Made by a program: the position numbers and the translations under genes | Shown: positions 23,381 to 27,163 of the stretch, in pieces | How positions within the stretch are numbered: position 1 is the first letter of the stretch | Layout: each line of letters opens with the position of its first letter | The notes under the pieces: model-generated | Told to the model about the DNA's origin: nothing | Seen by the model: the letters and a program-made list of their open reading frames with translations, nothing else | Databases searched by the model: none | Assembly: GCA_014801865.1 (NCBI GenBank) | Contig: JAAVDH010000018.1 | Coordinates: 137,714-201,713, forward strand | DNA from: Bacteroides sp. | GTDB lineage: Bacteria > Bacteroidota > Bacteroidia > Bacteroidales > Muribaculaceae | Length of the DNA stretch: 64,000 nt | Direction: 5' to 3'

Positions 23381-24925
23381 TTACTTCGCGAAAGCTACTG
23401 AGCGAGTTTCGCGGATGACGGTAATCTTTACCTGACCGGGGTAGGTCATTTCGTCCTGAATACGCTGGGCTATTTCGGCTGACAGCTTTTCGGTTTCGGC
23501 ATCGTCAATCTTATCGGCACCGACAATCACGCGGAGTTCACGACCGGCCTGTATGGCATAGGTCTTGATAACGCCGGGATATGAGAGGGCAAGCTGCTCA
23601 AGGTCGTTGAGGCGCTTGATGTAGGCTTCTACGATTTCGCGGCGTGCACCGGGACGCGCACCGGATATGGCGTCGCACACCTGCACGATGGGAGCCAGTA
23701 GCGATGTCTGCTCTATTTCGTCGTGGTGGGCACCGATAGCATTGCAGATTTCGGGCTTTTCCTTATACTTCTCGGCCAACTTCATGCCAAGGAGTGCGTG
23801 GGGCAGTTCGGGTTCTTCATCGGGCACCTTGCCTATGTCGTGGAGCAGACCGGCACGACGTGCCTTCTTGGGGTTGAGACCGAGTTCCGATGCCATTACG
23901 GCGCAGAGATTGGCCGTCTCGCGTGAATGTTGCAGGAGGTTCTGGCCGTAGCTTGAGCGATACTTCATCTTACCTACGAGGCGCACGAGTTCGGGATGCA
24001 GACCGTGGATGCCGAGGTCGATAACGGTGCGTTTGCCGGTTTCGATGATTTCTTCTTCGACGAGTTTACGCACTTTTGTCACCACTTCTTCAATACGCGC
24101 GGGGTGTATACGTCCGTCGGCCACGAGCTGATGGAGAGCCAGGCGGGCTATCTCGCGACGCACGGGGTCGAAGCCTGAGAGCACGATGGCTTCGGGGGTG
24201 TCATCAACGATGATTTCGATACCGGTGGCAGCCTCGAGAGCGCGTATGTTGCGTCCTTCGCGACCGATGATGCGACCCTTGATTTCGTCAGAGTCAATCT
24301 GGAACACTGTCACGGAGTTTTCGATGGCGGTTTCTGTGGCCACACGCTGTATCGACTGTACCACGATGCGCTTTGCCTCCTTGTTGGCGGTCATCTTGGC
24401 TTCGTCCATGATGTCGTTGATATAGCTCTGCGCGGCTGTCTTGGCCTCATCCTTGAGCGATTCGATAAGCTTCTCCTTGGCCTCCTCGGATGAGAGTCCC
24501 GACACGTGTTCGAGCTCTTCCTGAGCCTTGCGGCGCAGGCTGTCAAGTTCGGCTCTGGAGTTTTCGAGCTGTGCGCTCTGCTCTTCGAGGCGAGCTTTGG
24601 TCTGTTCGTTTTCCGATTTGTTGCGCTGGTTTTCGCTCTGCTGCTGGTTGAGCTGATTCTCGCGCTGCTTGAGTTTCGACTCCATCGACTGGACTTTCGA
24701 CATGCGCTGCTGGGCGTTACGTTCGGCCTCGCCCTTGATGCGCAGTTCCTCCTCGCGAGCCTCAAGGAGCTTGTTTTTCTTTATCACTTCAGCCTCGTTG
24801 CGAGCCTCGCGGAGTATCTCCTGCGAGCGGCTGTTGGCATTATTCTTCTGCACTATGAGTGTGCCCCATATACTGGCGGCCACCGCTATGATGAGAGCTA
24901 TTGCCCAGAGGATTGTGTATGTCAT
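23381..24925 (-). CDS. rny: Ribonuclease Y
   Basis: N-terminal TM, coiled coil, KH ([30 protein letters not shown]), HD (LLHDIGK). Confidence 0.96.
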
Positions 24926-25097
24926 ACTGGTAAATATTGGGTAGTTGGATTTGTAGAAATGTTATGAATGGTTCTCTTTTTCTTCGAATTATCTGATTAA
25001 TGTCGATTGATTTATGATTGGGTTGATTGAATGTCTATGGTTGTATGTATATTTATACTTAATGAGTTAGCTGTGAATGTTTGAAATGTGGTTATAC

Positions 25098-25215
25098 AAA
25101 AAAAACCGCATCATCATTCCGGCCGGTGCTCTCGTCGGTGTGTGAGAGCATAGCGGATAATGGTGCAGGTCTGATATAATTGATCGTTTATCCTGTAGCC
25201 GGACCGTGAGGCCCG
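25098..25215 (-). ncRNA. Candidate structured RNA/terminator in zapA-rny intergenic region
   Basis: CUCGUCGG/CCGACGAG, GGAUAA/UUAUCC, GCUCUC/GAGAGC, CCGC...GCGG-U8. Confidence 0.4.
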
Positions 25216-25222
25216 ACGAGGG

Positions 25223-25531
25223 TCAGTCTTTTATGCCGAGCATCCGGTCGAGGTTGTCCTCGAAGGATGCAAGCACATCGTCAAGGCGAGTCGCCTCTGC
25301 CTGCCGGCTCAGATAGCCTTTGGCAAACAGTAGCGTCACCATTGCAAGAACCTCATGAGGCGTCTTTCGGCTGAATCGTGCCTCGTCGCGCCATGCGTTC
25401 CATACATAGTTGATTTCTTTGGCGGCTTTTCTCAGCAGTTCCTCCTCATCACGGTTGATGCTGAGGCTCAGGGCTGTGTCAGCCACACGCAGATTTATAT
25501 CAAGTTTATCATTCATCGCATCGTCGGTCAA
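25223..25531 (-). CDS. zapA: Cell division protein ZapA
   Basis: INLRVADTALSLSINRDEEELLRKAAKEIN, ~100 aa; upstream of rny. Confidence 0.85.
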   Translation of the reverse strand: MTDDAMNDKLDINLRVADTALSLSINRDEEELLRKAAKEINYVWNAWRDEARFSRKTPHEVLAMVTLLFAKGYLSRQAEATRLDDVLASFEDNLDRMLGIKD

Positions 25532-25538
25532 GATCGCA

Positions 25539-25832
25539 TCATTGGTCGAGATCGTTGATACATTTGTCGATTTCCCGCACTAATTCGGCTAATAATGCCC
25601 GGGTGCCGATTACGCTCTCCCTGTCGGGGCAGAGTGTGGTGACAACCTGAAGATACTCTATCTGACGCTCCAGGCGCTCTATGTCGCGTGCCTGACGCTC
25701 CACGGTTGCTTCGAGTTCCTCAATCTTGACATCAGCCTGCGCTTTCGCCTCCTGTAGCAAGCGATAACGCTCTGTAAGCATGGCAGCCTTGGCGGCAATG
25801 CCGCTTAACCGCAGTTCAAGATTGTCGGCCAT
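25539..25832 (-). CDS. Small coiled-coil protein (ZapB-like in position), hypothetical
   Basis: 97-aa coiled coil directly upstream of zapA. Confidence 0.65.
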   Translation of the reverse strand: MADNLELRLSGIAAKAAMLTERYRLLQEAKAQADVKIEELEATVERQARDIERLERQIEYLQVVTTLCPDRESVIGTRALLAELVREIDKCINDLDQ

Positions 25833-26010
25833 TATTATCCCAATTTTTTACAAAAGTAGTCATTAATTTTCTAACCGCATAGCGTATGTTTGAAAAAAGC
25901 ATCCCACTCTGTCGAAAAGTACTGAACTGCTGATGTTAAAGGTGTGCGGTGTTCGTAAATAGTGTTTCATACGGATGCCAACAATTGGCATCTCCTCAGT
26001 ATTTAAAGCC

Positions 26011-26250
26011 TTATTTCCAAACATCTAAGAACTTCCAATTCTTGGGAAATCCCATTTCTTGCAGGCTTAGTAAATTGCCACCATCTCCGATGATTGAAAG
26101 GATATTACGCTTCAAATCACTGTCCGGACTGATGATGTTGCTGATATATTTTATGCAGCAAAGCACACTAAACACCTTGTTGGGGTGGAGGGAAATTAAC
26201 GTTTGCCTATCCAAAAATGGGAAATCGGTATTCCATATAAAACTTGAAGA
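26011..26250 (-). pseudogene. C-terminal remnant of Abi_2/AbiF-type abortive infection protein
   Basis: Frame reads SSFIWNTDFPFLDRQTLISLHPNKVFSVLCCIKYISNIISPDSDLKRNILSIIGDGGNLLSLQEMGFPKNWKFLDVWK*, like Abi_2 C-termini; N-terminal ~2/3 absent. Confidence 0.65.
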
Positions 26251-26290
26251 CCTCCCCGGGTGCGCTGGTCAATGGGAAGCGTGGGAGGTC
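26249..26290 (-). ncRNA. GC-rich hairpin at the predicted 5' end of the Abi-remnant transcript
   Basis: GACCTCCC-ACGCT-TCCCATTGACC-AGCGC-ACCC-GGGGAGGTC. Confidence 0.4.
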
Positions 26291-26300
26291 ATATTGAACG

Positions 26301-26330
26301 CAAAGTTAGCACTTTATTTGTGGATAACAA
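26301..26330 (-). promoter_or_regulatory. Bacteroidetes-type promoter (TTG-N19-TAACTTTG)
   Basis: Minus strand TTG at 26330-26328 and TAACTTTG at 26308-26301; predicted start falls just before the hairpin. Confidence 0.6.
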
Positions 26331-26456
26331 TGCTTCTGCTCATAAAAAATTGTAAAAAGTTTGTTTCTTGGCTGATTTTTATACTCACAAATGCTTGGCC
26401 CGAATTTAACATAAGAGAATCACGCGGTAAAGTAACTATTCAATATGTCGCTAAAT

Positions 26457-26542
26457 ATAATGAGTCGCGGAGCGACAGTATTGTGACACATTCTTTTGTG
26501 AAAGAGATGTACCGACAATACAGCCGCTCCGCGACTCATTAT
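26457..26542. repeat. Long inverted repeat / REP-like palindrome
   Basis: ATAATGAGTCGCGGAGCGAC-AGTATTGT ... ACAATAC-AGCCGCTCCGCGACTCATTAT. Confidence 0.7.
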
Positions 26543-26557
26543 TTTGATTTCCCCTTG

Positions 26558-27163
26558 TTACTTTGAGGTGTTGACCTTATTGTAGCGGGCGTTGAGTCCT
26601 TCGATAATCTCTGACGTGATGTCGAGGGCGGGGTTGAAGTAGATACCTGAAGCCTTGTAGAGGATGGCATCATAGCCGCGTGAGGCGTTGTAGTCGCGGA
26701 TAAATGAGTCGACAGAGTCGGTTATCTGCTGCTGCTGCTGAGCCAGTTCGCTGTCGGCGTTGCGGCTGAGGGTATTGAGATAGTTTTCGGCGTCGGCCTG
26801 CATCTTCTCCAGCTTCTGCATGTCGGCTTTGTAGCTGGCTTCTGACAGGTAGCCGTTGTTCTGTACTTTTTCCTGGATTGAAGCGGCAAGTCGCTGTATT
26901 TCGTTACCACGAGCCTGACGTGCGCCGTCAATCTTTGAGAGTGCGCTCATGTAAGCCTCGCGGAAGTCTTTTGAAAGATTGTAGTGGGCCATGAGTGAGT
27001 CGCCGTCAATATAGCATATATTGAGTCCGGCGGGGGCTGCGCTGTCATTTGATACGGTGGCCACTGCCGCGGGTGCTGTGGCGGCCTGCTTATCTGAGCA
27101 TGATGACGCTGCAGCGCCCATGAGAATGATGAGGAGGTTAGCTGTAAAGGCTAATTTTTTCAT
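26558..27163 (-). CDS. OmpH/Skp-family periplasmic lipoprotein
   Basis: Lipobox ASSCSD, 'ICYIDGDSLM' start motif, coiled coil. Confidence 0.75.
   Translation of the reverse strand: MKKLAFTANLLIILMGAAASSCSDKQAATAPAAVATVSNDSAAPAGLNICYIDGDSLMAHYNLSKDFREAYMSALSKIDGARQARGNEIQRLAASIQEKVQNNGYLSEASYKADMQKLEKMQADAENYLNTLSRNADSELAQQQQQITDSVDSFIRDYNASRGYDAILYKASGIYFNPALDITSEIIEGLNARYNKVNTSK

Follow-up and report, generated by a model that had tools for sequence, protein, structure and literature searches.

A relic AbiF locus of Bacteroides sp. with a divergent abiF RNA, compared with toxin-less abiF RNAs of bacteria and phages

RCd22 of C. difficile and AbiFr act as RNA antitoxins: each binds AbiF and inhibits its HEPN RNase (PMC12373285; PMC12737573, PDB 8vz6), and RCd22 works both in cis and in trans (PMC12373285). 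Binding and neutralisation of an AbiF toxin by RNA have been published for RCd22 and PbAbiF only. AbiF has also been linked in print to adjacent structured RNAs and to Cas13 (PMC12373285, PMC12165695, PMC12737573), as the first-pass annotation of the locus described here had stated. The type III systems ToxIN, CptIN and TenpIN likewise encode an RNA antitoxin upstream of an RNase toxin, but their toxins have an unrelated fold, and the tandem antitoxin repeats of these systems are absent from our locus.

This locus lies on the minus strand of the window, by which we mean the whole 64,000-nucleotide stretch of Bacteroides sp. DNA that was analysed. It shares with RCd22-AbiF (PMC12373285) and with PbAbiF-AbiFr of Prevotellaceae (PDB 8vz6, PMC12737573) a hairpin between the promoter and the Abi_2 gene, an RNA architecture of stem, single A, short stem, loop and 6-nt bulge, and a homologous protein. 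It differs from both in that the body of the toxin is deleted; further, it has a single hairpin where RCd22 has two, and its loop and bulge (GCUUCCC...CACCCG) score below the Rfam threshold. We are highly confident that the locus represents an AbiF-type (type III-like) toxin-antitoxin or abortive-infection module whose inactivation was recent, a relic of a known kind; its anatomy, homology, deletion and conservation are established at the level of sequence. The features are as follows, where L003 denotes the full-length copy in a genome of the same genus (G028).

26328..26330, minus strand: -33 element TTG of a Bacteroidota-type promoter, read directly; TTG-N19-TAnnTTTG is also found in L003
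26301..26308, minus strand: -7 element TAACTTTG, a box conserved among homologous hairpins
26249..26290, minus strand: divergent abiF RNA (putative RNA antitoxin), from RF03085 (24.9 bits), model R1 (68.4 bits) and covariation
26207..26236, minus strand: orphaned AbiF start codon (26236-26234) with TAG after 9 codons, aligned to the L003 start MDYTKRPLTL
26228..26233, minus strand: probable deletion junction, from the overlap of BLASTN pieces; its GAATAC matches GACTAC on the start side and GAATAC on the tail side of L003
26011..26232, minus strand: C-terminal 73 codons of AbiF/Abi_2 and stop codon (PADLOC AbiD, E 4e-6; 89% identity to L003), HEPN motif absent

The promoter (26330-26301) and the hairpin (26290-26249) had been placed in the first-pass annotation at exactly the positions that we find. 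Read directly on the minus strand, the promoter consists of TTG (26330-26328), 19 nt and TAACTTTG (26308-26301), with 10 nt between TAACTTTG and the hairpin, and the transcript is expected to start just 5' of the latter. The hairpin reads GACCTCCC-A-CGC-TTCCCATTGACCA-GCG-CACCCG-GGGAGGTC, which gives an 8-bp outer stem, one unpaired A, a 3-bp inner stem, a 13-nt loop and the 6-nt bulge CACCCG. Folding energy was rejected as proof of this structure: in isolation the hairpin has -16.7 kcal/mol, which 2 of 200 dinucleotide shuffles equal (z -2.4), and when it is folded within a 101-nt stretch its energy does not stand out (z -0.2). Because folding energy alone is insufficient, the claim that the hairpin is real rests on conservation and covariation.

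A pattern derived from the window hairpin found at least 118 matching stretches in public genomes; among the matches listed, those with a proper stem come almost entirely from Bacteroidota or their relatives, and chance matches elsewhere have no stem. Judged by its conservation, the -7 box of the window is not a chance occurrence: TAnnTTTG stands upstream of 90 of 111 homologous hairpins among the matches listed (89 of them at 9-12 nt), compared with 28 of 1005 control stretches. In the 36 distinct relatives among the matches listed, most of which lie directly upstream of Abi_2 genes, 92.7% of cells pair, and at five of the eight outer pairs both partners have changed. Outer-stem covariation in this set was 0.328, as against 0.127 in shuffles (0 of 500 reached the observed value) and at most 0.108 in slid alignments. 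The window hairpin thus has a two-helix architecture with a 6-nt 3' bulge that is supported by covariation. Its presence upstream of intact homologues was looked for specifically, and comparable hairpins were found in front of L003 and L004 (BLASTN), of L001, and of intact Abi_2 genes at 52 loci in public genomes (among the matches listed), as well as in covariance-model matches.

With cmscan, the window hairpin aligned to RF03085 (abiF RNA) with the same helix layout at 24.9 bits, below the cut-off of 37, and scored 68.4 bits with model R1. The RF03085 gathering threshold was reached neither by the window nor by any of 18 sister loci, and AbiF leaders of the same genus (L005-L008) scored between 30.7 and 57.8 bits. 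The window hairpin therefore belongs to a Bacteroidota branch of abiF RNA that lies below the Rfam threshold and is missed by current annotation, with the consequence that many AbiF systems and relics are at present unannotated. Rfam matches to plant microRNAs at 26455-26545 and 25980-26060 were discarded as sub-threshold and biologically implausible.

Downstream of the hairpin, an open frame runs to the stop at 26011, as had been proposed; yet of the roughly 75 codons ascribed to Abi_2, only 73 (26232-26011) derive from it, and the preceding residues SSFIW are leader sequence read out of frame. That the fragment is an Abi_2/AbiF C-terminus is borne out by its match to the PADLOC AbiD profile (E 4e-6; profile positions 222-272 of 277), by its 89% amino-acid identity to the tail of L003 and by matches to Abi_2 C-termini from six further genomes. 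Searches against Pfam and NCBIfam yielded no match, including none to the Abi_2 profile PF07751, because the remnant is C-terminal to that model. The HEPN catalytic motif R-N-x-x-A-H and an intact frame are both missing. The surviving AbiF ATG and the surviving tail are in different frames, and therefore no truncated AbiF is made from that start. A search for direct repeats between 25840 and 26560 found none, and thus no tandem antitoxin repeats, and there is one RNA-model match at the locus.

Comparison with L003, from a cultured isolate assembled at about 100x, supports the earlier proposal of a deletion that removed the toxin body and spared RNA and promoter. In G028 the same promoter, RNA and gene occur together, and the full-length homologue, interrupted by one in-frame TAA, has a PF07751 match at E 4e-62. 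BLASTN aligns the window to L003 in two pieces, one covering promoter, RNA and start (107 nt, 87.9% identity) and one covering the tail (223 nt, 74% identity; 89% in amino acids). These pieces, 26228-26333 and 26011-26233, share 6 nt (GAATAC, 26233-26228). This fits a deletion across a short direct repeat of about 6 nt, with a loss of about 725 bp in L003 coordinates. In the window, the second codon is fused to the last 73 codons; the toxin body and the catalytic motif are gone and the frame is shifted. The HEPN motif RNCCAH of L003 is situated some 25 residues N-terminal to the start of the part that the window retains. The two tails have diverged to saturation at synonymous sites (pS about 1.0) but have a pN of 0.086, which indicates that purifying selection acted on AbiF over most of their divergence, that protein and RNA alike were selected until shortly before the deletion, and that the deletion took place comparatively recently. 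L003 (172-3183) is flanked by genes of the tyrosine-recombinase type, of which the downstream one is a Pfam Phage_integrase, suggesting that the module travels on a mobile element.

By analogy with RCd22/AbiF and PbAbiF, the RNA of an intact copy, made in excess, would bind to the AbiF dimer and keep its RNase inactive, a balance that phage infection would disturb. By the same analogy, the window most likely still makes antitoxin RNA without its toxin: its promoter would yield a short RNA beginning with the hairpin, and no toxin would be made, although transcription, binding and lack of toxicity are matters that we infer. Loss of the toxin first, with the RNA kept, would be the safe order of decay for an AbiF module, since a cell that lost the RNA first would be left with an unrestrained toxin. 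The window gives a direct view of the demise of an RNA-antitoxin module, in which the toxin goes before the RNA. The same genome carries a second, intact AbiF (L001, on contig C9), which matches PDB 8vz6 at E 2e-65 and has its own, different abiF-type RNA.

Loss of the toxin is common among bacterial copies. After removal of duplicates, the 92 evaluable RNA-bearing loci among the matches listed comprised 52 with intact AbiF, 22 with broken AbiF and 18 with none, so that 40 of 92 had lost the toxin and kept the RNA; this set was found through the RNA, and survival of the RNA is thus built into it. A search that started from Abi_2 proteins found an upstream RNA match for 8 of 11 broken and about 36 of 51 intact genes, by our own tally of canonical genes away from contig ends, with one of the 8 below the Rfam threshold; the two proportions are much alike. 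Within the genus, our count of RNA-bearing copies is seven intact and five broken. The RNA is intact in G017, where 23 N-terminal and 52 C-terminal toxin residues remain, in G026, where an N-terminal scrap has lost its start codon, in G004, where the toxin frame is broken, and in G028, where one stop breaks it. Internal deletions like that of the window recur in L028 (Parabacteroides massiliensis SN4, a cultured isolate), L070, L072, L083, L105, L121 and L127, and L025 has only a few toxin codons left at each end.

Could such an orphan RNA be kept in order to work in trans, as an anti-addiction or back-up antitoxin that neutralises the AbiF of contig C9 or one arriving on a mobile element? The intact RNA and promoter of the window, the second intact AbiF with its own RNA in the same genome and the trans activity of RCd22 (PMC12373285) speak for this, but the window and C9 RNAs differ in stem and bulge (CACCCG vs CGCUCA). 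Moreover, the promoter box is present in 47 of 52 loci with intact, 16 of 22 with broken and 11 of 18 with no toxin, among the matches listed, and this fall with toxin loss points to slow decay of orphan RNAs, not to their general retention. The two pairs of orphans that we compared (L046/L094 and L071/L135) are nearly identical over their whole regions, too similar throughout to reveal extra constraint on the RNA. We consider retention for action in trans improbable.

Two further readings are less probable still. The deletion might be an artefact of metagenome assembly in an organism that has the full-length gene; the source is indeed a draft of 46 contigs, about 71% complete. The junction, however, lies inside a 252-kb contig, and comparable truncations have arisen independently elsewhere, among others in a cultured isolate, which makes an artefact very unlikely. 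That the remnant of 67-85 codons is a functional small protein we hardly credit at all: its frame is open and its amino acids are conserved relative to L003, but the AbiF start is out of frame and runs into a stop after 9 codons, selection on the gene while it was still full-length accounts for the conservation, and other truncated copies retain different pieces. A recently inactivated AbiF module thus remains our preferred reading of the window.

Some orphan RNAs have other genes behind them. In a Ferruginibacter MAG (L115, 2083-3756), the abiF RNA lies 38 nt before a SLFN_AlbA_2/HATPase gene instead of AbiF; either this effector has taken the place of AbiF, or the gene came to lie there by chance once the toxin was lost. 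New effectors behind orphan RNAs, namely this gene and an 804-codon frame in L117, were rejected since they are single cases and L117 contains an AbiF scrap. In two Chlorobiaceae MAGs (L046, L094), translations read by eye place the orphan RNA directly upstream of an apparent addiction-module or RelE-ParE-like pair.

Toxin-less abiF RNAs are also found in phages. A scan of IMG/VR with the window hairpin and three sequence variants of it gave 35 contigs, most with a well-formed stem, the R1-type matches scoring 48-74 bits; an exact-sequence scan of viral contigs re-found only five contigs. An Abi_2 gene was present in 5 of the 32 records searched whole and absent from 27, a few of these matches being chance or fragmentary. 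The Abi_2-free records reach 173 kb, and the sampled ones include terminase, portal, DNA polymerase or virion genes. RF03085 scored above threshold (49.9-58 bits) in eight cultured phages, Acj61, S-SZBM1, Thibault, S-CREM1, CRP-143, PZL-Ah8, CGphi29 and LittleE, and no Abi gene is annotated near the abiF RNA of the cultured phages. Phages with the RNA only are diverse and mostly of lytic type, ranging from T4-like Acj61, Omegavirus mycobacteriophages and cyanomyoviruses to T7-like Autographiviridae, Arthrobacter phage Mimi and large uncultivated phages. AbiF proteins in the phage collection belong, instead of to these, to phages of Streptococcus, Clostridioides, Lactococcus, Listeria, Enterococcus, Staphylococcus and Lactobacillus and to unnamed faecal contigs.

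The phage copies have compensatory changes of their own at six of the eight outer pairs (14 sequences, L354 being a partial match). A tRNA gene lies within 100 nt of 15 of the 35 toxin-less phage RNAs, mostly at 4-19 nt, where uniform placement in the same stretches would give 3.8; the 15 include related contigs, so that independent cases are fewer. Partial matches in Burkholderia phages BcepSauron and BcepSaruman, where they are antisense to a gene, and in MT835720 were discarded, their outer stem being disrupted or missing. The Acj61 RNA did not match the leaders of AbiF on Acinetobacter plasmids; only a Phocaeicola and a Piscirickettsia plasmid matched.

The occurrence of toxin-less abiF RNAs in diverse phages, and of AbiF proteins in other phages, suggests RNA-based decoys against AbiF. 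We lean towards the view that these RNAs are a widespread phage counter-defence, often encoded within tRNA arrays and expressed during infection to keep the host's AbiF RNase shut; on this view the orphan RNA of the window would be their equivalent on a chromosome, left behind when the toxin was lost. Such decoys would resemble the pseudo-ToxI of PhiTE (PMC3475682) and the RNA anti-CRISPRs Racr (PMC10651486), to which only the phage copies compare, in that a phage possesses the RNA that goes with a host defence RNase but lacks the protein itself; they differ from these in that the RNA belongs to AbiF and inhibition is putative. The closest published case is the abiF sRNA of cyanophage S-CREM1 (PMC9964418), an RF03085 RNA inside the tRNA array of a lytic phage with no Abi gene nearby, which was reported as an annotation, with no anti-defence role proposed; the present survey adds many unrelated phages. 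This annotation was the only earlier mention of a phage abiF RNA in our literature search, outside which the AbiF structure paper fell. Rfam already lists a few phage members, and we are not certain that the decoy idea is new.

If phage RNAs do inhibit AbiF, they would constitute a naturally widespread RNA-based anti-defence against a proposed ancestor of Cas13, phage tRNA clusters would gain a second role as RNA-decoy islands, and the target of AbiF's defence would become testable with phages already in culture. In itself, the window locus is unexceptional, a recent remnant of a system already known; its value lies in the RNA branch, the order of decay and the case for phage inhibitors.

Several phage contigs are individually of note. 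In L313, L316, L322 and L323 (IMG/VR, 96-173 kb), the toxin-less abiF RNA follows tRNA-Thr by 13 nt, in an array of eight tRNAs near GroEL and DNA polymerase genes. L349, L350 and L351 have abiF RNA cores directly behind phage tRNAs, with an outer stem apparently interrupted by an insert of about 30 nt before the GGGGTG-like strand, and are possibly a three-way-junction variant. Phage MT836731, which also has an abiF RNA, contains a DUF3800-VIII RNA above threshold (L383, 2404-2815), and mycobacteriophages Thibault and LittleE have a DUF3800-IV RNA below threshold beside tRNA-Tyr (L374, 3781-3862; L382, 3430-3511); no DUF3800 protein was recognised near these three RNAs in a profile-free reading of their surroundings. 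Phages may thus collect several toxin-associated RNAs.

In its genomic context (23381-27163), the window relic lies between an OmpH-like gene and a DUF3450-like/ZapA/RNase Y cluster. None of the 29 ompH loci of the same genus that we examined has a gene of the ZapA cluster within about 1.5 kb, which places the relic at a lineage-specific point of rearrangement or insertion. A comparison with an empty site was dropped, because ompH and the zapA cluster are not neighbours in these loci and no clean empty site could be aligned. Next to the relic, at 26454-26545, is an imperfect palindrome with 31-nt arms (AATATAATGAGTCGCGGAGCGACAGTATTGT), of which about six related copies occur elsewhere in the genome on both strands (74-88% identity), so that it is a dispersed REP/MITE-like repeat.
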